Assembly (NCBI GenBank): GCA_021775795.1 | Contig: JAJFHB010000048.1 | Location: forward strand, 1-14,848 | Length of the DNA: 14,848 nucleotides | Source: Hyphomicrobiales bacterium | Lineage (GTDB): Bacteria > Pseudomonadota > Alphaproteobacteria > Rhizobiales > JAJFHB01 | Reading direction: 5' to 3' | Shown: positions 4,287-14,848 of the stretch, piece by piece | Numbering within the stretch: the first letter of the stretch is position 1 | Layout: the number at the start of each line of letters is the position of its first letter | The notes under the pieces: model-generated | What the model saw: only the letters and a program-made list of their open reading frames with translations | What the model was told of the DNA's origin: nothing | Database searches by the model: none | Position numbers and translations under genes: made by a program

Positions 4287-5028
4287 TAACGCGCTGTGCA
4301 AGCAGGCGTTCTATGACGACGTGCGGCGCAACCTTCAACCGCGTGTGGTTGATGATCTGGCGGCCACGCTCTGGCATCCCTTCCGCCAGCACCCCTTCGC
4401 CCAATACCGGCGAATCGTATCGCTTTGAGAGCAGACTGAAGATCGACTGATCATGTCTGTGGGCACTGAAGCCTTCGTAATTTGGCAGGCCGCAGACATT
4501 TGGCTGGTCTGTCAGGATCCTTTCGTCCTCCGCATAGGCCAGATACCGGGCAACGAACTCTTGAGACCATGCCGATTTGCGCAGCATGAAACAGCTGGCG
4601 AAACGATGCGGCGAACCGGCAACTTCTTCTTTGTCCATGTCGATCAGGACAAACGCGTCACGCTTGGTGAACTGTGCCTCAGTAAACGCCTGACCGGCGA
4701 TCAGCAGGTCGGCATGATGCCGATCAAGCCTCTCCACCATCGGGTCGATTGGGTTGACGAAGTGCATGGCGGCGTCTGCGTAGAAAAGAACATCCCCCTC
4801 GTCCAGTTCTGCAAGGGTTTTTGCCACCAGATAAGGTTTCCAAAGCCAATAGCCGGCACCACGTGTTGCTGAAAGGGGTTTTGCGTTACGGCGCCTAAAA
4901 TCGGCATCGATATCCGCCGGCCCATAAAGATGGCAGACGTCAAATCCGAACAACCTGCCAGTGAGGGCATTGATCGACTGGTAGGCCGCAAAGGGTTCAT
5001 CGGCGTATGTAACCAGAACGCTTTTCAC
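4246..5028 (-). CDS. Putative glycosyltransferase, GT-A-like, family not assigned
   Basis: 260 residues, GTG start at 5028 overlapping the stop of the upstream gene (GTGA), so probably translationally coupled. The features point to a GT-A fold enzyme: RGAGYWLWKPYLVAKTL (56-72), a strand ending in an acidic motif, GDVLFYADAAM (78-88), in the place where DXD motifs sit, and HDQSIFSLL (192-200), a pattern common near the C-terminal part of small transferases. I recognise the GYWLWKP signature from uncharacterised bacterial sugar transferases but cannot name a donor or acceptor. No membrane segment. Last gene of a three-gene transferase operon. Confidence 0.65.
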   Translation of the reverse strand: MKSVLVTYADEPFAAYQSINALTGRLFGFDVCHLYGPADIDADFRRRNAKPLSATRGAGYWLWKPYLVAKTLAELDEGDVLFYADAAMHFVNPIDPMVERLDRHHADLLIAGQAFTEAQFTKRDAFVLIDMDKEEVAGSPHRFASCFMLRKSAWSQEFVARYLAYAEDERILTDQPNVCGLPNYEGFSAHRHDQSIFSLLSKRYDSPVLGEGVLAEGMPERGRQIINHTRLKVAPHVVIERLLAQRVITPGDLLELSLPG

Positions 5029-6023
5029 GTCCGCTCGCCCGGTTCGTACAGGCGGCCGCCGCAGCGGCAGGATCGGTCACAACCGTGAGCGAGTTTCACC
5101 GCCAGGCGCTTCTGCGGATCAATTTCTGCAAGATCGAGCAGATCCTTGAACCGCTGCGAGTAACCGTCACGCTTCCAGCTCAAATGTCTCTCATAGGCTT
5201 CATCATCCCCATCCAGAACCTTCAGGTAATCGGCAAGCTCGCGAGGCGAGGAAAAATCTGAGGCGTTGATGAAGGCCTCATCCGCCGGCATGAACTCACC
5301 TACATTGGGAGCGCCGAGGTAGACCGGCACCACGCCACTTGCAAGCGCGTGGTAAACCCTTTCGGTGACGTAGTCCTCTGTGACGGAGTTTTCAAAGGCC
5401 AGGTAGAATTTGTAACGCGGCAACACCGACAGGACGCTGCCCCAGGCACCAGTAGTCCAGCCTCCGCTTACAAAGCCTTCGATATCCGCATTGTGTAAGC
5501 ACTTGCCGGGGCTGTCGACACGCATATGGCACATGAGTTTGGAAGCGAGATCATCTCGATGGGCAACCGGGTTCGAGGCGATGTACACCGCAAGGGCACC
5601 GTCAGATGGCCCGGATCGTTCCGGCACGGGATCCATAAACGTCCCGTACTCCCGCCAGTTGGGATAAATGCAGGGCACATCGGAATCGAGCCGATACGTC
5701 ATGTGAACATCGAACAAGCGCATCGCCTGTTTGTCCCGGAGCAAAGGATAATTGACGTCGCTTTCCATGCTCATGAGGACCCAGGGCTGACGCTTTGAGG
5801 GCGGCAGATCGACAATTGAGGGCCCATGCAGCCAGACAGCATCTGCCTCGTGCAAGCGGCTGCGGTCCGATGTGAAGGTGAGCTCAATGTCCGGACCGTT
5901 GGCATTTTCCACACGTTTGCCGTCAAGGTATTCAGCGCCAAAAAAATGTTTCGTCCAGGCCAGAACCAGAAGTTTCGTCGATTTCAAATCCTTTGGAATC
6001 TGCTGCACTGCGCCGGCTTTCAT
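5025..6023 (-). CDS. GT10-family glycosyltransferase (alpha-1,3/4-fucosyltransferase-like)
   Basis: 332 residues. The C-terminal half carries the GT10 signature in order: YKFYLAFENS (204-213), EDYVTERVYHALASGVVPVY (216-235), LGAPNVGEFMPADEAFINAS (236-255), then a DFSSPRELADYL stretch. Earlier motifs also fit: MSMESDVNYP (84-93) and HMTYRLDSDVPCIYPNW (107-123), equivalent to the YRRDSD segment that lines the GDP-fucose site. The usual TEK is TER here. Characterised members transfer fucose from GDP-fucose to GlcNAc or Glc of lipopolysaccharide, capsule or milk-type glycans; the acceptor here is unknown. The last 20 residues contain CDRSCRCGG, a small cysteine cluster. ATG 6023 overlaps the preceding stop (ATGA), and the stop overlaps the next start. 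Confidence 0.85.
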   Translation of the reverse strand: MKAGAVQQIPKDLKSTKLLVLAWTKHFFGAEYLDGKRVENANGPDIELTFTSDRSRLHEADAVWLHGPSIVDLPPSKRQPWVLMSMESDVNYPLLRDKQAMRLFDVHMTYRLDSDVPCIYPNWREYGTFMDPVPERSGPSDGALAVYIASNPVAHRDDLASKLMCHMRVDSPGKCLHNADIEGFVSGGWTTGAWGSVLSVLPRYKFYLAFENSVTEDYVTERVYHALASGVVPVYLGAPNVGEFMPADEAFINASDFSSPRELADYLKVLDGDDEAYERHLSWKRDGYSQRFKDLLDLAEIDPQKRLAVKLAHGCDRSCRCGGRLYEPGERT

Positions 6024-7216
6024 GATTCGATATCAAAGCTCATGAGACCGGCCAGATGTCGGCACACACGGTCCGCGTTGAAGCGCGTGTGAAGTTGCGG
6101 TGGAAGGTCAAGTGCAATTTTGTGTGCAGAGTTCTGATTCTCATAGACCGTGCGCATCAACTCACCGGCATGGCGCTCATCTGCTGCGGCCCAAAGCGCG
6201 TCCCCGGACGACTGAAAATGCCCGTCCTGTTTCTCTTCCGAAACTCTCACCATGTCGTGGTGAACCAGAAACGGGTAATCCGCGCCCAAATAATCCAGAT
6301 GGCCTCCCCACCCCGTGATGATGACAGGGTTGCCGAACAACGCCGCATCGAAGGACGTAAGACCCCACCCCTCACTGTGTGTCAAACTGACGAAACAATC
6401 GCCACGGCTATGCAGCCGATCAATATCGAGGGCCGGGAGGAATTTCGCGATCAAATGAATTTTGGCAGGATTTGCATACTCCGAAATTATGTTGGCGAGT
6501 GACCACCAGGTGGTGAGCTCGTGAGGCCGCATGGGGGAGTGTTGGTTCTTCTCCGAAGCAAAGTGGGAGATGCTGTTCACCGCGTCGGTCTTGACGATTA
6601 AAGCCACCTTGTCATTGCCATCAAACGCCTCCAGATAGGCACGGATCGTCCTTTCCAGAGCCTTGCGCGTCGTCCAGGTTCCGATGGTGTAGAAGACGTA
6701 ATCATCTTCAGCAACATCGCCCCAGGTAGCGCCGCCGAGAACGGGCTCAACGGCGCGGGCAATATGTGGCACGACTTCGACGGCGGCCGTCACACCGGCT
6801 GACAGGAGGCTCTGGCGGTTAAAGGCTGACGGCACAAACACACACTCATATAGGTTTAATGCCGGCAGCCAGGTTGCTGGTATTTGTTCCAGCTCCCATG
6901 TGACGTAGGTGAATGGCCGCAGATCGGGTTCGGCGTGGCGCCAGTAGAGCTGGGCATCAGGTGGTGGCAGGTCCACCAGTATTGTGTCACACGCGATTTG
7001 CCGCTGCCACAAAGGCAATACATCATCGCGGATCTGCGGGTGAAGATCACGGTGGTTGACCGCTTTTATTGAGGGATCATCGACGTTTGGGAGAAGGGGT
7101 GCCCAGGTTACCGGCACACCGAGTGCATGCAAGCCTGCAATATATTCAGAACCCGCATTACCATACCCACAGCCAGGCTTTAGCGTTACGACCTTGAGAC
7201 CGCGCGTCCGAGCCAT
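6020..7216 (-). CDS. GT4-like glycosyltransferase (GT-B fold)
   Basis: 398 residues, typical length for a GT-B enzyme. The N-terminal domain starts LKVVTLKPGCGYGNAGSEYI (7-26), with the glycine-rich loop expected for the acceptor side. The C-terminal nucleotide-sugar domain has YTIGTWTTRKAL (176-187), VALIVKTD (204-211) and the signature SLTHSEGWGLTSFDAALFGN (277-296). The usual E-x7-E motif is E282-x7-D290, so the second acid is Asp. This is followed by PVIITGWGGHLDYL. The start at 7216 has no Shine-Dalgarno sequence of its own and lies three bases after an in-frame stop that ends a short upstream ORF. First large gene of the minus-strand transferase operon; cytoplasmic or peripheral at the inner membrane. 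Confidence 0.82.
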   Translation of the reverse strand: MARTRGLKVVTLKPGCGYGNAGSEYIAGLHALGVPVTWAPLLPNVDDPSIKAVNHRDLHPQIRDDVLPLWQRQIACDTILVDLPPPDAQLYWRHAEPDLRPFTYVTWELEQIPATWLPALNLYECVFVPSAFNRQSLLSAGVTAAVEVVPHIARAVEPVLGGATWGDVAEDDYVFYTIGTWTTRKALERTIRAYLEAFDGNDKVALIVKTDAVNSISHFASEKNQHSPMRPHELTTWWSLANIISEYANPAKIHLIAKFLPALDIDRLHSRGDCFVSLTHSEGWGLTSFDAALFGNPVIITGWGGHLDYLGADYPFLVHHDMVRVSEEKQDGHFQSSGDALWAAADERHAGELMRTVYENQNSAHKIALDLPPQLHTRFNADRVCRHLAGLMSFDIES

Positions 7217-8286: not shown

Positions 8287-8381
8287 AACGCCAGGACCGA
8301 TGAGGCCTGCCTGGTGCGCAGCTGACGCCGATGTAATTTGCACGCACCGATCTTGCAGCGCTATGCTCAGTGTGCTTAGAC

Positions 8382-8415
8382 CCGCGGGGAGCGCCATTTA
8401 AAACTGGCGCTGCGG
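8382..8415. repeat. Hairpin-forming inverted repeat between yafJ and the SLOG gene
   Basis: AGCGCCA (8390-8396) pairs exactly with TGGCGCT (8405-8411) across the loop TTTAAAAC. CCGC (8382-8385) can also pair with GCGG (8412-8415), with four G residues bulged on the left side. There is no T-run after it, so it is not a classical terminator. It could still end or process the yafJ transcript, or be an operator for the next gene. Confidence 0.5.
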
Positions 8416-8462
8416 CAATTCGCGATCAAACGATTCAAAACCAAGTCATGGGCCCCCAGACG

Positions 8463-9116
8463 ATGCCGCCACGGACACTGACATTCGGGATCATTGGTCA
8501 CCGTCCCAACCGATTACCGGCGTCTGCGCGCGCCGCGTTGACGGGCGAAATTGGCCGTGTGCTCGATGTTCTCGGCGAAGCCTTCCCGGGGTCGCAGTTT
8601 TTGCTGGTTAGCGGATTGGCGGAGGGGGCCGACCAGATGACCGCGAAAGCAGCACTTGAGCGAGGCTTTCGTCTGGTCGCACCCTTGCCATTTTCACGCG
8701 GGGAGTTTGCCAAGGATTTTGAGGCGGGCGCTGTTCGCGATGCCTTCCACGACCTGCTTCGCCAAAGCGATGAGGTGGTTGAACTTCCCGGCACACGGGC
8801 CGATGAGGGTGAAGCCTATGAAGCGGTTGGCCACATGGTCATCGCCAGAGCAGATGTCCTTATTGTCGTTTGGGATGGCGGCGCATCGGCTGGGCGCGGC
8901 GGCACCACCGAAATGATCCTGTCGGCTGCACGCCTGGGCAAACCAACCGTACATATTGATGCGCACGCAAAAGCGCCGACGACAATTCTGCGCGCAGCCG
9001 ATGGCATGCATCTCAATAATGATGCTGAAATTGAAAACCTCGATGCGAGCCTGTTTGATGTCAATGTCACCTTGCTTGCCGAGGATGTGGAAGCGATCCG
9101 GACGCGCACCGGGTAG
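8463..9116 (+). CDS. Stand-alone SLOG/LOG-like Rossmann-fold protein
   Basis: 217 residues from ATG 8463; ATG 8448 (222 residues) is equally possible, and the frame is open to 8370. Neither start has a clear ribosome binding site. The fold is indicated by LTFGIIGHRPNRLP (6-19) as the first strand and loop, LLVSGLAEGADQMTAKAALE (47-66), the glycine-rich strand-loop ADVLIVVWDGGASAGRGGTT (130-149) with Glu150, and LGKPTVHID (158-166). The GRGGTTE motif corresponds to PGGxGTxxE of LOG/DprA-type proteins. Relatives either hydrolyse cytokinin-type nucleotides or sense nucleotides; some SLOG domains bind NAD-derived signals in anti-phage systems. No catalytic assignment can be made here. It probably acts in the cytoplasm as a monomer or dimer. 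Confidence 0.7.
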   Translation: MPPRTLTFGIIGHRPNRLPASARAALTGEIGRVLDVLGEAFPGSQFLLVSGLAEGADQMTAKAALERGFRLVAPLPFSRGEFAKDFEAGAVRDAFHDLLRQSDEVVELPGTRADEGEAYEAVGHMVIARADVLIVVWDGGASAGRGGTTEMILSAARLGKPTVHIDAHAKAPTTILRAADGMHLNNDAEIENLDASLFDVNVTLLAEDVEAIRTRTG

Positions 9117-9268: not shown

Positions 9269-10234
9269 ATGCGTAAGAACGCCCATCTGAAACAACCATC
9301 GAAAACATGGCTTGCCCTTGCGGGCGGCATGATTGCCGCCGCTATTGCCATTACAGCGGATCTCTCGGCCCAGGCAGAGGACATTGCTCTGCAGGAAGAT
9401 GTCATCGAGAGCCGCCCGGGACCCGGCTATTTCAGCGACATGCGGGCCAGTCAGATGATCGTTGGTGGCCAGGATGCGGACACCGGCGAGTGGCCCTGGC
9501 AGGTTTACATCATATCGGGAAACGAAACACGCGATGGCGGCCTTGCCGGGCAGAGCTGCGGCGGTGTTCTGATTGGCGAGGACTGGGTGATAACGGCAGC
9601 CCATTGTGTCCTCTCCGATGATGGCGAACGGTTCGAGGATTTCTATGTGTTTCTCGGCTCGAACGTTGTGGAGAGCGGCGAAATGCTGCAAGCGCGCCGC
9701 GTCCTCGTGCACCCGAGATATGACCCAGTCATGATCGAGAACGATATGGCGCTCATTCAACTTGAGCGCCCCCACACTTCTGATGCGCAAGTAATCGATT
9801 TTGCCGATCCTGCGGACGAAGCGCTATTTGCCGGAAACGGTACAACCGCGATTGCAACCGGATGGGGTGCGTTGCGCGACGGCCAACTGCTCACTTCCGG
9901 CGGCAACCCCAAGCAAGATCTGCAGAGCGTCCCAACTTACTTGCGTGAAGTTGAGCTCGAATTGCTTGATTACTCCACCTGTCGGCGACGGCCATACGGC
10001 AATGAAATCTCCCAGAACATGTTGTGCGCCGTTGCCCCCGATGACGACTGGCGCGGCGTTTGCAGCGGTGACAGCGGCGGGCCCCTGGTGGTCGAAGCCC
10101 GCAACGAGCAGGGCTATATACTGGTTGGGATTGCAAGCTGGGTCCGCATTTGCGGTGACCCGCAGTATTACAGCGTCTTCACCCGCGTTTCTCAATACAC
10201 CGGCTGGATCAAAAAAGTGATGGCCCGCTTCTAG
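9269..10234 (+). CDS. Secreted S1A serine protease zymogen with elastase-like pocket
   Basis: Chymotrypsin-fold protease of 321 residues. ATG 9269 is preceded by GGAGG seven bases upstream, so the longer frame from 9233 is rejected. It has a signal peptide (hydrophobic 14-30, likely cleavage after SAQA at 36), a propeptide of about 27 residues, and the mature N-terminus IVGGQ at 64-68. The catalytic triad is His112 (TAAHC), Asp159 (ENDMALIQL) and Ser269 (GDSGGPL). The six cysteines 97/113, 238/253 and 265/295 match three classical disulphides. Residues at chymotrypsin positions 189, 190 and 216 are Gly263, Val264 and Val292, as in neutrophil elastase, not the Asp189 of trypsin. The residue before IVGG is Met63, so trypsin-type activation is not expected. 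Substrates are unknown. It ends 22 bases from the convergent kinase gene. A weak TTGTCC/GATAAT pair (9173-9203, 19-base spacer) may be its promoter. Confidence 0.92.
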   Translation: MRKNAHLKQPSKTWLALAGGMIAAAIAITADLSAQAEDIALQEDVIESRPGPGYFSDMRASQMIVGGQDADTGEWPWQVYIISGNETRDGGLAGQSCGGVLIGEDWVITAAHCVLSDDGERFEDFYVFLGSNVVESGEMLQARRVLVHPRYDPVMIENDMALIQLERPHTSDAQVIDFADPADEALFAGNGTTAIATGWGALRDGQLLTSGGNPKQDLQSVPTYLREVELELLDYSTCRRRPYGNEISQNMLCAVAPDDDWRGVCSGDSGGPLVVEARNEQGYILVGIASWVRICGDPQYYSVFTRVSQYTGWIKKVMARF

Positions 10235-10256
10235 AGTATTTCGTGATCCCGGGACG

Positions 10257-12260
10257 TCAGCTTGACGGGGTCTCCATCAAACGGCCAATACGGCCGGCAA
10301 ACTCGGCGGCACTCATGTAGCTGCCAAAAAGACGATAGCGGATGGCCGCACGCAACAACTGCTTGATTGCAGCGAGATCGTAGGGCGTTGTTAAATTGAG
10401 CGCATCAACACTTGCAAGCAATGCACGCTGCCTGTTGTAGGCACCGCGGAGCGACACACCCGCTTCGTCCGCCGGCAAGCTGCCGCCCAGCACTTCCAGT
10501 AAAACGACCGCAAGCGCAAAAACATCGGCGCGGCCTCGATCAGACCAACCGATCAGGGCTTCCGGTGGCATGTATGCGCGCGTGCCTGCAATCGGAGCGT
10601 TGGCGCGGTCGCTCACCCGCGTGGCAATTCCGAAATCCACGAGCACCGGCTGGCGGCCGCCGCGCAACAATATATTATCGGGCTTGATGTCACGGTGGTG
10701 CACGCCGACCGCGTGCAACGCTTCAACAGCCAGAGCTGTGTCGCGCATGACCAGCAGGGCCAACTCCGGCTCGATGCCGCCATCTTCCATGAGTTCGCGC
10801 ATATTCCTGCCGGCCACAAACTCCTGCACGACATAATACTCTCCTGAGCTGTCGCGACCGCAGGCAATGGTGCGGGCAATGCCTGGATGGGAAAGCTCGG
10901 CGGTCGCATCAAGCTCGCTCTTGATGCTGGCGATGATGCTCTCGCGCTTTTCATGGGAATACAGATTGGAGAGGCGGAACCGCTTGATCGCCACTTCACG
11001 GTTTCGTTCAACATCAAGCGCCCGGTAGACGGTTCCAAAGCCACCGTCGCCCACCCGCCGAATGAGCACGTAGGCGCCGGCTGAGCCCTCCATGGTTTCA
11101 CTGAAGTGCCGGTCATTTTCTTCCGGAACGGAATCATGGATTCCCAACCGGGTTTGCGCCGTACGCAGCTTTTGTACCTGGGCATTAAGGTCGCGGGTAT
11201 CCGCATACGCGATGCCGCTGGTAAGAACGCTGGTGCTCTTGCCGAATTCATTGAGGCCCGCATGGGCTTCGGCCAGCATCAATCTGACCTCAATGGCTGG
11301 AACCGCATTCTCGGACGTTTCATAGCGCGGCAACATGGTTTGCAGCATCGCCTTGGCCTGTTCATGTTGCCCGGTGGCAAGGAAATACTCAGCCTCGGCC
11401 ATCTGCACTTCATTCTTCTCATAGTCTCCGCCTGATGCTGCGGCGTCGTCTCTGAGGGCCTCCAGCGCCGCTTCTGATTCATCGATGCGGCCGAGCCTTA
11501 TCAACGCGAAGGTGCGGGTACGATGAGCAAGAAATGAAAAGTAGGCGGGGCTCGATGCACCATGATCACTCAGAAAAGCGTCAGATCTGGTCAGAGCTGC
11601 TTCGTGTTCTCCTGCGCCCAGTTCAGCGCGGGCGTGGATCAGATGGATGCGTTTCCAGAAGTAACCGCCGATGTGGTCCTGCTCGTATTGGCGCGCACGC
11701 TCAAGAAACTGCAGGGCGCGCTCATGACGCTGCAGCTCCAGATGCAGGTCGCCGAATTTTGTGAGAACCAGAAAGGTGCGCGGCGCATCGCCGAGCACCG
11801 TAACTTCCGCCATGGCGTCGCTGAGGTGCAGATAGGCATCGTTGCCCCTGCCTGTCCAGATCGCAACAGCCGCGAGTTCCAGCCATACATCGATGAGAAC
11901 ACCGGCATCGCCAAGCGCATCGGCCTCCTGTTTGGCCTGATAGAGAAGGGACAACGCTGTGTCAGGCTCACCGGACCTGTTGGCGAGAACACCTTGCAGC
12001 ATATCGTGGCGGATACGCACGAGACTGTCTGCGTCCTGCAACAGCTTTGCCGGCGGCAACTCCCGCGCCACATCCTGCGGCACAGCGTAACTCAGGGCAC
12101 GGGCCCAGGCGCGCTCAACACACACATCGGGTGCGTCCGCATCCAGACCGCTGAGTATCTTTTCAGCTTCCGCCGGATTGCCGACCAGCAGCAGGGCTCT
12201 TGCCTGATCGACAGCTGATGTCTGCTCGACCACCGGGCCCTGTTCAGATGCGGAACTCAT
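10257..12260 (-). CDS. Cytoplasmic TPR-Ser/Thr protein kinase (Hanks type)
   Basis: 667 residues with no membrane helix. Residues about 15-375 are helical repeats of TPR type (for example RALQFLERARQYEQ at 181-194 and AEAEYFLATGQHEQAKAML at 288-306). The kinase domain follows at about 395-660: glycine loop GDGGFGTVY (404-412), Lys426 in VAIK, Glu449 in helix C, catalytic loop HHRDIKPDNILL (521-532), VDFG (541-544), GTRAYMPPEAL (559-569) and the DVFALAVVLLEVLGG helix (579-593). All catalytic residues are present, so it should be active. TPR before kinase is the reverse of the common kinase-then-sensor order. It lies 49 bases after the FHA-protease gene on the same strand; FHA domains bind phosphothreonine, so that protein is a likely partner or substrate. 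Confidence 0.92.
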   Translation of the reverse strand: MSSASEQGPVVEQTSAVDQARALLLVGNPAEAEKILSGLDADAPDVCVERAWARALSYAVPQDVARELPPAKLLQDADSLVRIRHDMLQGVLANRSGEPDTALSLLYQAKQEADALGDAGVLIDVWLELAAVAIWTGRGNDAYLHLSDAMAEVTVLGDAPRTFLVLTKFGDLHLELQRHERALQFLERARQYEQDHIGGYFWKRIHLIHARAELGAGEHEAALTRSDAFLSDHGASSPAYFSFLAHRTRTFALIRLGRIDESEAALEALRDDAAASGGDYEKNEVQMAEAEYFLATGQHEQAKAMLQTMLPRYETSENAVPAIEVRLMLAEAHAGLNEFGKSTSVLTSGIAYADTRDLNAQVQKLRTAQTRLGIHDSVPEENDRHFSETMEGSAGAYVLIRRVGDGGFGTVYRALDVERNREVAIKRFRLSNLYSHEKRESIIASIKSELDATAELSHPGIARTIACGRDSSGEYYVVQEFVAGRNMRELMEDGGIEPELALLVMRDTALAVEALHAVGVHHRDIKPDNILLRGGRQPVLVDFGIATRVSDRANAPIAGTRAYMPPEALIGWSDRGRADVFALAVVLLEVLGGSLPADEAGVSLRGAYNRQRALLASVDALNLTTPYDLAAIKQLLRAAIRYRLFGSYMSAAEFAGRIGRLMETPSS

Positions 12261-12309
12261 TCACGCTAACACCCCCCGCCCCGAACGCCTCTCAGATCAA
12301 CTCTTCCGA

Positions 12310-14052
12310 TTAACTCTGGTCAACCTGTCCGTAGAGGCGGAATTTGAATTCTTCCTTCAGATCTGTCTCAGAACGCAGGCCCACGTAGATGGTGCTTGCC
12401 TCTGTGAGAACGAAATAGACCAGCGCTATGGCGTTGGTATCTCGGCCATATTCAACACCTGAATTGTTGTCGAAAACAACCATCAAGTTGAGCTGCCCTG
12501 ACGGCGAACCTGCAATGCCGACATACTCGCCGGCCTCCAGCTCCATCAGAAACTCACCCACATGCATTTCGGTGCCGTCGAAGTCCCGAGCCTCGAAGAC
12601 GCCGGACTGTTCCTGGAGAGCCGGGGTATCGCTGCCCTGAACACTGCCACCGAGAGCATCGATCAGTGACGCATAGATGTCGCCATAGGCGTCAAAGGGC
12701 TCAAGCTGATCTGTCCAGACCTGCGGCAGCTCTTCCATGACCTGGTCCATGCGGCCTTCGAGCATGTCACTGACAAGATTTGCGCGCTGGCCGAAGTTGA
12801 TGCCGATACCGCTGTCGATCCACTGGTCGAGATAATTGACCGTGCCGGTGGCATGGCTGACAACCGCTACAGCCTCACCTTTTGAGTTGATGATCGGGCT
12901 ACCGCTGGCGCCGCCCTGAATGGGAAGGTTATGCTGAACCAGATCCGCGAAGTTAGAATCGTCGGGACGGACACCGTAGTAATCCGTTAGAGATGTCACG
13001 CTGCCGCGTTGTACGACCGGCTCCGGCTTGCGGACGATGGCCTGGACAAGCGCATTGCTGTCCATGGGATAGCCGGCATAGCCAATTTCATCACCGGAAC
13101 GAAGGCTGTTCAGAACGTCTTCTTCTGCAATGGGAATGGCCTTCGCATGGCCCTCACCTTCTTCGATGAACAACAGGGCAACGTCATAGCCATCGATCGG
13201 ATAAACCTCAGTTGTTGTCCCATCCTGTTCAACAATGAAGCGCGGATTCTCTGTCACAAACTCCGAAAAGCCGGCGTAACCTTCATGGACCTGGATGCCC
13301 GTTACCAGATGAGTGCGGTTGTCTGCGTGCGAAGACCGCACGAACATTTCCTGGTCACCGGTAAGTTCATTGTAGAGGACGGCAACATGGGCATTGGTTG
13401 CCAGCACGCCATCACCGACAACCCATGCGGTTCCCGCACCGCTTTCACCTATCGCGCTGCGCACACCAACCACGTAAACAGATTCTGATATATCGCGGAG
13501 AGCATCCGACAGGGATTCCCGTTCACCAACCGGTGGCGTTTGGATGCCGCTGATGATTTCCGCGAACCGCGCTTCGTTGCGTTCTTCCTGCCAGAAATAG
13601 AAGCCGCCTGCCCCGATCAGGGCGACAGCAACCAGAGCCACAATAACGCGGTTCAACATCATGTACCTGCCGCCACGCTCGGCCATGGCACCGGGGTGTT
13701 GCTGTGGCGTGAAAAAATCCGTCTCGGGCAGAGTTTCGTCGCGCTCGACCTTGATGGTCAGCGTCGGGCCATCCTCTGTACCAAGAGCGAGTGTGCATTC
13801 GTCCGGCAGTTCAGTGCCATTGTGCAAACGCTCCCCGTCCATGAAGACCGGGTTGTCCGCCTGCATGTAAACACTGTAACGGCCAAGCTTTTCTTCAAGG
13901 CTCAGATGGCTACGCGAAAGCCGTGTGTCCAATGCCGGCAGCACGATGTCTGATTGGGGGTTTCGGCCAACGACAATCTTCTTTTTGCTGTCCGAGAATG
14001 AGAAGTCGGTCTCCTCAACATCAACATTCTGCAGCTCAATTGAAATTTTCAT
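12310..14052 (-). CDS. FHA domain - membrane helix - trypsin-like serine protease
   Basis: 580 residues; ATG 14052 follows GGGAGAG at six bases. Residues 20-100 are an FHA phosphothreonine-binding domain: VVGRNPQSDIVLP (27-39), RLSRSHLSL (44-52) and NPVFMDGERL (67-76) carry the Gly-Arg, Ser-x-x-His and Asn-Gly-like positions. A single membrane helix spans about 136-154, with Arg126, Arg129 and Arg135 before it and acidic residues after it, which predicts FHA inside and protease outside. The protease domain (about 185-430) is HtrA/DegP-like in sequence style, with His222 (ATNAHV), Asp290 (GYDVALLFI) and Ser384 (GGASGSPII). No PDZ domain follows; residues 495-575 look like a beta-sandwich, perhaps a PPC-like domain (FLMELEAGEYVGIAGS and similar). 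First gene of an operon with the TPR kinase. Confidence 0.9.
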   Translation of the reverse strand: MKISIELQNVDVEETDFSFSDSKKKIVVGRNPQSDIVLPALDTRLSRSHLSLEEKLGRYSVYMQADNPVFMDGERLHNGTELPDECTLALGTEDGPTLTIKVERDETLPETDFFTPQQHPGAMAERGGRYMMLNRVIVALVAVALIGAGGFYFWQEERNEARFAEIISGIQTPPVGERESLSDALRDISESVYVVGVRSAIGESGAGTAWVVGDGVLATNAHVAVLYNELTGDQEMFVRSSHADNRTHLVTGIQVHEGYAGFSEFVTENPRFIVEQDGTTTEVYPIDGYDVALLFIEEGEGHAKAIPIAEEDVLNSLRSGDEIGYAGYPMDSNALVQAIVRKPEPVVQRGSVTSLTDYYGVRPDDSNFADLVQHNLPIQGGASGSPIINSKGEAVAVVSHATGTVNYLDQWIDSGIGINFGQRANLVSDMLEGRMDQVMEELPQVWTDQLEPFDAYGDIYASLIDALGGSVQGSDTPALQEQSGVFEARDFDGTEMHVGEFLMELEAGEYVGIAGSPSGQLNLMVVFDNNSGVEYGRDTNAIALVYFVLTEASTIYVGLRSETDLKEEFKFRLYGQVDQS

Positions 14053-14661: not shown

Positions 14662-14848
14662 ATGGCATACGTCTTTCTCTCATATTCGCACGCCAACGCC
14701 CATGATGCAGAGCGGATCGCGATCTCACTGGAACAGTGGGGTCACGAAGTGTTCTATGATCGTGACAGTTTGCCGGCCGGCGAGGCTTTCGACCCGGCAA
14801 TCAAGCGCAACGTCGAGAAGGCCGATCTGTTCGTCTTCCTGATTTCGC
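14662..14848 (+). CDS. TIR-domain protein (3' part cut by window)
   Basis: Only the first 62 codons are inside the window. The product begins MAYVFLSYSHANAHDAERIA, then has LEQWGHEVFYDRDSLPAGEA and IKRNVEKADLFVFLIS. This is the start of a TIR domain: strand A FLSYSH, box 2-like DRDSLPAGEAF, and strand D LFVFLIS. Bacterial TIR domains often cleave NAD or make cyclic ADP-ribose signals, usually in anti-phage defence, but some are adaptors. The catalytic Glu would lie just past the edge, so activity cannot be judged, nor can any C-terminal effector or sensor domain. There is no clear ribosome binding site. It is divergent from the FHA-protease/kinase operon. Confidence 0.85.
   Translation, partial: MAYVFLSYSHANAHDAERIAISLEQWGHEVFYDRDSLPAGEAFDPAIKRNVEKADLFVFLIS

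Follow-up and report, generated by a model that had tools for sequence, protein, structure and literature searches.

The question raised by this locus is whether a soluble kinase, a membrane-tethered protease and a secreted protease, encoded side by side, form one pathway. The window (the whole stretch of 14,848 nucleotides that was analysed, from a Hyphomicrobiales bacterium) was an entire contig. In the initial annotation, it was proposed that the TPR-kinase acts through an FHA-tethered protease, which matures a secreted zymogen. The three genes and their domains were found as placed there (S1A protease, TPR-kinase and FHA-TM-trypsin), and the Pfam scores and coordinates held. They are listed with their neighbours in Table 1.

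Table 1. Features of the three genes and their neighbours, in window positions.
Feature	Position	Strand	Basis
SLOG-like protein gene	8370..9116	+	weak, sub-threshold Pfam matches to DprA and YAcAr; homology
Secreted S1A protease zymogen P0001; signal peptide, activation site after Met63	9269..10234	+	Pfam, alignment; signal peptide and AQA cleavage site by eye; hydrophobic peak
Met63 codon, P1 residue of activation cleavage; IVGG from 9458	9455..9457	+	alignment
Soluble TPR-Ser/Thr protein kinase P0002, 667 aa, downstream gene of pair	10257..12260	-	Pfam, alignment, model
Protein kinase domain, catalytic residues intact	10281..11072	-	Pfam, alignment, fold search
TPR/alpha-helical repeat region, about residues 16-372	11145..12215	-	Pfam, model
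FHA-TM-trypsin-like protease P0003, 580 aa, upstream gene of pair	12310..14052	-	Pfam, alignment, AlphaFold model
Protease domain, trypsin-like with HtrA fold; catalytic residues H222, D290 and S383; predicted to lie in the periplasm	12862..13434	-	Pfam, alignment, fold search
Single transmembrane segment, residues 136-154	13591..13647	-	hydropathy 2.25
Thr111, candidate phospho-site in FHA-membrane linker (LPET)	13720..13722	-	alignment and shuffle test; phosphorylation inferred
FHA domain, residues 26-91, predicted cytoplasmic	13780..13977	-	Pfam 35.4 bits
Start of TIR-domain gene, cut by contig end, divergent from FHA-protease gene	14662..14848	+	Pfam, PADLOC-DB matches

In the case of P0003, the FHA domain scored 35.4 bits against PF00498 (gathering score 20.7) and the protease part 55.9 bits against Trypsin_2 (Pfam, residues 207-397). 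The relatives of P0003 were recovered by an alignment-based scan; a single-protein pattern scan of genome contigs gave none. The triad was invariant among 16 aligned relatives, and the FHA residues G29, R30 and H49 were kept in at least 90% of the 16 rows. The FHA domain was found by Pfam at E 0.05 in 11 of the 16 relatives, and one relative was cut before the FHA part. The AlphaFold model consisted of the FHA domain, a helix at residues 130-168 and then the HtrA-fold protease. P0003 was the sole FHA match (E up to 0.001) in the window's own draft genome, which was 71% complete. An apparent natural FHA-protease-TPR fusion at locus L029 was rejected, since its open frame spans N runs (residues 580-652 and 778-843).

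The kinase was complete and is predicted to be soluble, as had been claimed. Pkinase (PF00069) scored 130.4 bits at residues 397-600 of P0002, with TPR families N-terminal to it, and the catalytic residues K426, D524, N529 and D542 (Lys, HRD, Asn and DFG intact) were invariant in 10 aligned rows. Two mild hydrophobic peaks were found at residues 116-134 (hydropathy 1.67) and 578-596 (1.78). P0002 was read as soluble because both peaks fall within TPR/kinase helices of the model. In a fold search of this model against the PDB, the best 50 matches listed were protein kinases, and none of them offered a parallel to the TPR arrangement. P0002 was the sole kinase match (E up to 1e-10) in the same draft genome.

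The P0003 and P0002 genes were co-directional and 49 bp apart, with the FHA-protease first. At 15 of 17 Pseudomonadota FHA-protease loci the kinase was found no more than 10 kb away, in one case truncated where the contig stops, and at 14 it was within 3 kb. This compared with 3 of 22 protease-only control loci, which were mostly Planctomycetota and many of which had short flanks (Fisher 3.5e-6). The gene order and strand of the pair varied between loci (same strand in either order, or convergent). In each of the five genomes of the order that have the FHA-protease (G000, G018, G203, G212 and G260), a single Pfam kinase was detected (E up to 1e-10), and this was always the kinase of the pair; four other carrier genomes had 2 to 6 kinases each. 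The adjacency recurred in other genera and so exceeds chance. These results suggested, from sequence comparison, that the kinase and the FHA-protease very probably act together, and this part of the initial annotation stood.

The FHA-protease family was rare and patchy. Among 297 genomes of the order it was found in 5, all of which belong to the 11 with the TPR part, and in a phylum draw of 398 genomes the window's own was the one that had it. Bauldia litoralis, a non-pathogen, is one of the carriers. At L035, where the FHA-protease, TIR and nSTAND were present, no kinase was found in the available stretch (6 kb on one side). L015 had a short kinase-like frame that was not confirmed as a kinase, at L022 the kinase was ended by the contig edge after its first residues, and no TPR part was detected in the kinase of the Shewanella locus L018. 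Relatives were found neither on plasmids (two query proteins) nor on viral contigs. This counts against a mobile defence module, which might show such copies. Among the papers listed in literature searches, none was recognised as describing the pair; an earlier account may exist in work from 2015 on nucleotide-centric conflict systems.

The initial annotation had named homologues of kinase and FHA-protease regularly found apart, and without an S1A gene, as evidence against its relay. Part of this was found: in six genomes of one genus, the TPR-kinase occurred with neither the FHA-protease nor S1A nearby. These lone kinases would also fit an FHA-protease that is a phospho-dependent scaffold or decoy, whose protease domain sends no signal on while the true targets of the kinase lie elsewhere. 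Excerpts of a survey of conflict systems describe the effector-position trypsin domains of some systems as mostly catalytically inactive (PMC7159879). However, the triad of P0003 is invariant, and we consider a scaffold or decoy improbable.

The pairing of the kinase with an FHA protein resembled known Ser/Thr kinase-FHA pairs (GarA, OdhI, Rv1747 and type VI TagH/Fha), in which the kinase stands beside the FHA protein. The FHA domain of P0003 was related in PDB sequence matches to Rv1747, GarA and OdhI. In OdhI and GarA, a phospho-threonine in the linker is read by the FHA domain, and by analogy a linker phospho-threonine might be read in P0003. A threonine was found at nearly the same linker offset as Thr111 in 8 of 9 rows from the half of the FHA-protease tree that holds P0003 (equalled in 24 of 5000 shuffles) and in 5 of 6 rows of the other clade (301 of 5000). 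Over 15 rows, 109 of 5000 shuffles were as high. This modest signal is no more than suggestive of a conserved phospho-site. The linker threonine was present in kinase-less relatives too. Unlike these pairs, the FHA domain of P0003 was joined to a transmembrane protease, and P0003 scored 21.9 bits against the TagH type VI FHA model (TIGR03354), below its cut-off of 120.25.

With the HtrA/DegP/MarP proteases, P0003 shared the fold, the triad and one TM segment before the protease. The closest solved folds were DegP/HtrA/MucD (PDB fold search; DegP and HtrA1 at E about 1e-11), and the PDB sequence search also returned the membrane-associated serine protease 3k6y, which we take to be MarP. P0003 differed from these proteases in having no PDZ match (Pfam, E 0.01), an FHA domain inside the cell and a C-terminal beta-rich region. 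Its score against the MarP model (NF033740) was 23.3 bits, below the cut-off of 250.

The neighbourhood was considered for the purpose of the pair. TIR, nSTAND1, DUF4062, RyR-TrkA or SLOG-like genes stood beside 13 of the 17 FHA-protease loci and beside 1 of the 22 controls, a comparison biased upward by conflict-gene profiles seeded from the same loci. Eleven of the 13 had a Pfam match over the cut-off to TIR, nSTAND1, DUF4062 or RyR, and two had SLOG-like genes alone. In a genome-matched test (Pfam TIR_2), 4 of 8 genomes had a TIR gene no more than 10 kb from the FHA-protease, against an expectation of 0.19 (P 1.5e-5). All four TIR matches of the Shewanella genome were within 17 kb of the FHA-protease. 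Alteromonas arenosi carries a complete island, with TIR-nSTAND, kinase and FHA-protease. In G203 and G260 the nearest TIR was only at 12.4 and 12.7 kb from the pair, and the genomes of L020 and L028 had no TIR gene near it. The SLOG-like protein of the window, labelled from weak Pfam matches and local profiles, was homologous to the SLOG-like neighbours in L018 and L029. The initial annotation had missed these TIR, nSTAND, SLOG and RyR neighbours, and they alter what the pair is likely to be for.

In a different reading, the pair would be an envelope-stress or cell-surface housekeeping switch of the MarP/HtrA kind, in which the kinase tunes periplasmic quality control and TIR and SLOG stand nearby by chance. 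The DegP/HtrA/MucD folds, the 3k6y match and four Pseudomonadota loci without conflict genes (L015, L028, L030 and L062) are consistent with such a switch. It is nevertheless unlikely, given the TIR genes near the pair, the conflict genes at most loci and the rarity of the family. The context suggests instead that the pair is probably an arm of conflict islands.

Excerpts of two surveys list trypsin, kinase and FHA among the effector domains of TIR/nSTAND1/SLOG/EAD conflict networks (PMC7159879, PMC8195603), and a DUF4062 NADase, Swarozyc, is described in part of another report (PMC13174449). The neighbour genes here belong to the families of these networks and of Swarozyc. In the same excerpts (PMC7159879, PMC8195603), the effector domains are separate or fused; the combination found here, a TPR-kinase that partners an FHA-TM-protease, is not among the arrangements described. 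In PADLOC-DB 2.0.0, with matches judged without cut-offs, no full-length match was found among those listed: P0003 matched only the protease part of RT-Protease_XI, and the 25 matches listed for P0002, out of 34, all covered the kinase part only (e.g. PD-T4-6). According to the sections seen of PMC12799240, a trypsin-like protease activates a proenzyme in an immune setting in the nuclease-protease pairs of Hachiman, AVAST, Lamassu and DRT. In those pairs the protease forms a fusion with the immune enzyme, and its partner is a nuclease of the MBL fold. Unlike the pairs in those sections, the protease here is predicted in the envelope and linked to FHA and kinase, and the possible partner is a secreted S1A protease. 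The MBL-fold family was absent from the Pfam tables of the scanned neighbour proteins, which were part of all neighbours.

The S1A gene was convergent with the kinase gene, 22 bp apart. P0001 showed a full-length PF00089 match (Trypsin, 175.6-175.8 bits, profile positions 1-220 of 220), an IVGG-type N-terminus after a prosegment and GDSGGP, as in an S1A zymogen. Its start is 9233 or 9269, and the numbering of Met63 uses 9269. PF00089 matched three proteins in the window's draft genome: P0001 and, at 75 and 51 bits, two others that we take for HtrA-type proteases by their lower scores; the S1A-group profile gave one match. The P1 residues of eight aligned cassette S1As were M, F, Y, F, M, F, M and M (basic in 0 of 8), whereas the other S1A sites compared were mostly basic at P1 (Arg or Lys in 14 of 18; p 0.0003). 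Six of the eight had a trypsin-like pocket (D189) together with a non-basic activation site; by the usual relation between pocket and cleavage preference, these six would not be expected to activate themselves. In the case of P0001, the pocket was elastase-like (G189, V216). The claimed non-basic activation site was borne out by the alignment, and the need for a non-tryptic activator was supported in part.

In all five genomes of the order that bear the FHA-protease, an S1A gene was found on the same contig, at a distance of up to about 9 kb, and one was also present at L032 and L035. Overall it was at 7 of the 17 loci. None was found near the other 10, some with short flanks, and none of the other FHA-proteases that group with P0003 in the tree had one. 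Seven S1As from six FHA-protease loci formed one clade (support 100/100). P0001 was a long branch of uncertain place in the tree, with an AU p of 0.49 for one clade with the cassette S1As. The window S1A is divergent, and its sequence leaves its descent ambiguous between the cassette clade and elsewhere. In the S1A-gene regions of three same-family genomes, only P0001 of 12 window query proteins was matched.

These results bear on whether the three genes are one dedicated pathway in the window's organism, from kinase through FHA-protease to the secreted zymogen. The S1A genes near every FHA-protease of the order, their common clade and the six that should not self-activate speak for it. The 10 loci without S1A, the long branch and pocket of P0001 and its position on the opposite side of the kinase from most cassette S1As speak against it, as do the S1A genes more than 8 kb away in L007/L023 and L035 and the fact that S1A matches are fairly common among genomes of the order (present in 47 of 294). 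We regard such a pathway as rather doubtful. As a general relay it did not hold, and of the co-occurrence that had been expected, only the kinase with the FHA-protease was retained. The secreted zymogen is a partner in some lineages and not a core part. That the FHA-protease matures it is a tentative suggestion from the sequences.

The sequences show the parts, the intact catalytic residues and the conservation of the pairing, the context and the non-basic activation site. All phosphorylation, binding and cleavage steps are inferred, as are the biological purpose and whatever in the topology goes further than hydropathy. A cue received by the TPR part would make the kinase active. The kinase would then phosphorylate a threonine, located either in the kinase itself or in the linker between FHA domain and membrane, and the FHA domain would bind the phospho-threonine. 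Docking or clustering may turn on, or aim, the periplasmic HtrA-fold protease domain. The pair would be the output arm of predicted conflict or stress islands with TIR, nSTAND1, DUF4062, SLOG-like and RyR as cytoplasmic sensors. In a Hyphomicrobiales sub-clade, and possibly in the window, the S1A zymogen would extend the switch by a further protease downstream, which would mature through cleavage at a Met/Phe/Tyr site. We lean slightly towards this reading, in which the kinase and FHA-TM-protease are one membrane-crossing phospho-switch serving such islands with S1A as an add-on. The complete chain, from TIR/STAND sensing through kinase, phospho-threonine, FHA and protease across the inner membrane to S1A maturation in some lineages, is speculative and rather unlikely as a whole.

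To our knowledge, the outputs of known STAND and TIR systems have their targets in the cytoplasm or at the membrane. The model makes concrete predictions, namely one threonine and one cleavage site. If it is true, FHA domains would gain a new type of client, a protease across the membrane, and, should the complete chain hold, the envelope would in some lineages have a two-step protease cascade with a logic comparable to the complement or prophenoloxidase cascades of animals. A kinase-gated protease facing the periplasm would offer a route by which the alarm could leave the cytoplasm and reach the envelope or neighbours.

The initial annotation had placed an S1A zymogen, a TPR-Ser/Thr kinase and an FHA-TM-trypsin protein side by side, and the positions of the three genes were borne out in the window, which is a complete contig from a draft genome (71% complete, 705 contigs). 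The S1A protease was full-length, and in the kinase protein a TPR region preceded the protein kinase domain. The FHA-protease carried an FHA domain (26-91), a single hydrophobic segment (136-154) and a trypsin-like domain (207-397). Catalytic residues of the window proteins were intact and did not vary across aligned relatives. The FHA part matched the solved Rv1747, GarA and OdhI in sequence. An AlphaFold model of the FHA-protease (mean pLDDT 74, built from 16 sequences) showed an FHA sandwich, a low-confidence helix (130-168), a protease domain grouped with DegP/HtrA by Foldseek and an additional beta-rich region at the C-terminus (~480-575).

Features in the window and in loci around relatives (L-numbers)
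Locus	Position	Strand	Feature
Window	4246-7216		Gene block including the fucosyltransferase
Window	5025-6023	-	Family 10 fucosyltransferase
Window	6020-7216	-	Group 1 glycosyltransferase-like protein, under Pfam cut-off
Window	9269-10234	+	S1A zymogen (P0001)
Window	10257-12260	-	TPR-Ser/Thr kinase (P0002)
Window	12310-14052	-	FHA-protease (P0003)
L009	4628-9317		Adjacent genes for a patatin phospholipase, a TPR-S-nucleotide cyclase (SLOG-like part) and a TrkA_N-RyR protein, beside FHA-protease
L009	7473-9317		TrkA_N-RyR
L010	7505-11159		Kinase and FHA-protease genes interrupted, three S1A frames open
L017	15786-17492		TrkA_N-RyR
L018, Shewanella ulleungensis contig 1	428836-450412		Region around the locus with all TIR_2 matches of the genome
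L019	11842-14304		TrkA_N-RyR, RyR match below cut-off
L020	1314-3248		TrkA_N-RyR
L026	10001-13801		Phycisphaerales FHA-protease, several hundred additional C-terminal residues without Pfam match
L119	9329-12636		Three tandem S1A protease genes, same-family genome

The FHA-protease family was scarce. A 13-row profile found it in 5/297 genomes of the order; a class draw gave matches in 4/385 genomes, two of them proteases without a detected FHA, and a phylum draw gave 1/398, namely the window's own genome. A collection scan gave 47 loci, where L023, L024, L025 and L050, judged by place and length of the contig, were contigs already counted, and L059 and L060 were left out because they had no match to the protease profile. 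The FHA-protease set was 17 Pseudomonadota loci with one count each (the window, L007, L008, L009, L010, L015, L017, L018, L019, L020, L022, L028, L029, L030, L032, L035 and L062). The FHA part of L030 fell past the contig end, and the L010 gene was broken across two frames; the interruptions at L010 may reflect decay or assembly error.

A kinase was located within 3 kb at 14 of the 17 loci, with a TPR part detected in each except L018 from Shewanella. At L022, the TPR part and the initial residues of the kinase domain were 8.7 kb off at the contig end, which gave 15/17 within 10 kb. No kinase was found in the available stretch of L035, and a short kinase-like frame at L015 was not confirmed by tblastn. 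Among ten FHA-proteases from other phyla (nine Planctomycetota, one unplaced), only one had a kinase nearby; none was found in the neighbourhood of L026. Of 23 protease-only loci listed, 22 were distinct, with a kinase within 3 kb in two and within 10 kb in three (Fisher p 3.5e-6 for 15/17 vs 3/22), although these controls were poorly matched because they were mostly Planctomycetota and several had short flanks. A better argument was that the five FHA-protease genomes of the order each had exactly one kinase, the paired one (Pfam kinase search, E 1e-10). Four further carriers had more: Alteromonas 3, Shewanella 6, Rhizobium terricola 2 and the L028 MAG 3. Orientation varied among loci (either gene leading, or the two convergent), and therefore the neighbourhood was kept through rearrangement. 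However, lone TPR-kinases spoke against strict pairing. A profile of the TPR part alone matched 11/297 genomes, which were the five FHA-protease carriers and six from one Methyloceanibacter-like genus (L078-L083). In these six, profiles found no FHA-protease, S1A or conflict gene in the 14-20 kb around. The lone kinases occupied the same chromosomal place (gene lists of four of the six genomes in full, a fifth in part), and two neighboured the Methyloceanibacter cassette kinase in the tree. The L078 and L079 copies were spread across two frames.

The domain layout suggested an inside-to-outside switch, in which the kinase and FHA domain would be in the cytoplasm and one TM segment would join the FHA domain to a protease with an HtrA-like fold. 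In the short FHA-TM linker, a Thr was found at a nearly constant offset, and it would be a candidate phospho-site. The window has the motif LPET, several of its relatives have an LPxT-like form, and some members of the other clade carry a D/NRT-Q-like one. The Thr fell within three residues in 8/9 rows on the window's side of the tree (24 of 5000 shuffles equally high), in 5/6 rows of the other clade (301 of 5000) and in 10/15 of all rows (109 of 5000). This signal was suggestive only, because relatives without the kinase have it too.

An S1A gene was alongside the FHA-protease at the window, L007, L008, L009, L010, L032 and L035, and none was found at the remaining 10/17 loci. Seven of these cassette S1As from six loci formed a single clade (support 100/100; the tree left out a third S1A frame at L010). 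The window S1A was a long branch, and the one-clade test (p 0.49) spoke neither for membership nor for exclusion. In the FHA-protease tree, the window was on the Shewanella/Rhizobium terricola side (100/99 branch), apart from the other S1A-bearing loci, and its S1A was at the opposite end of the kinase gene compared with L008, L009, L010 and L032. Its pocket residues were G189/V216, an elastase-like set, and those of six other cassette S1As were D189/G216, a trypsin pocket. The residue preceding the mature N-terminus was M, F, Y, F, M, F, M and M in eight aligned cassette S1As. Thus a predicted non-basic activation site is a trait common to the window S1A and the others. Other S1As of the order had Arg/Lys at 14/18 places (p 0.0003, which overstates independence because seven sister sequences are related); these places were readable by a simple motif in 16/25 loci, and one count per locus gave 13/16. 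In the six S1As with a trypsin pocket, a Met/Phe/Tyr site would disfavour self-activation, and another protease would be needed. The FHA-protease is the nearest candidate activator. No FHA-protease was found in the L119 genome, which has tandem S1A genes.

The conflict-gene setting of the pair was missed in the initial annotation. Beyond the window FHA-protease gene, the initial 62 residues of a TIR protein were found (TIR_2, 47.9 bits) before the contig end cuts the gene. Upstream of the S1A gene was a SLOG-like protein whose DprA and YAcAr matches were weak and fell short of the cut-off; it matched a SLOG-like neighbour at the Shewanella locus (tblastn E 1e-21). Conflict-type genes were present at 13/17 loci: TIR or TIR-nSTAND1, frequently carrying WD40 or TPR repeats (L007, L010, L017, L018, L019, L022, L029, L035), DUF4062-nSTAND1 (L020), TPR-S-nucleotide cyclase and patatin (L009), TrkA_N-RyR at four pair loci, which look like nucleotide-gated channel parts, and SLOG-like proteins at several. 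L020 also had a phage-integrase match, under cut-off, ~9 kb off. The control values were 1/22 for protease-only loci and 0/10 for other-phylum FHA-proteases, a comparison that tilts toward FHA-protease loci because the profiles were seeded from them. Without SLOG-like proteins, 11/17 loci still had Pfam-supported conflict genes. A linkage test free of this bias used Pfam TIR_2 over eight carrier genomes (1 to 10 matches each). In 4/8, a TIR match and the FHA-protease were no more than 10 kb apart (265 bp, 5.0, 3.6 and 2.3 kb) vs 0.19 expected (P 1.5e-5); the genomes had been picked beforehand for kinase count, with TIR neighbours of some already known. The closest TIR was 12.4 kb away in G203 and 12.7 kb in G260, and the TIR_2 search found none near the FHA-protease in Rhizobium terricola or the L028 MAG. 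In Shewanella ulleungensis, all four matches were within 17 kb, one interrupted by a stop. The neighbour families belong to conflict systems that have been predicted or tested: nSTAND1 and related effectors (PMC8195603), trypsin, kinase and FHA effectors (PMC7159879), and DUF4062, a TIR-like NADase that acts against phage (PMC13174449).

A literature search found no account of the kinase/FHA-protease pair, though older work might contain one. The initial annotation had proposed a three-gene relay from kinase to tethered protease to secreted zymogen; the kinase/FHA-protease pairing held, and the S1A did not hold as a general third member (7/17 loci). Judged from sequence, the most fitting description would be a membrane protease that bears an FHA domain, is paired with a kinase and belongs to TIR/nSTAND/SLOG islands, plus a lineage-restricted secreted protease.
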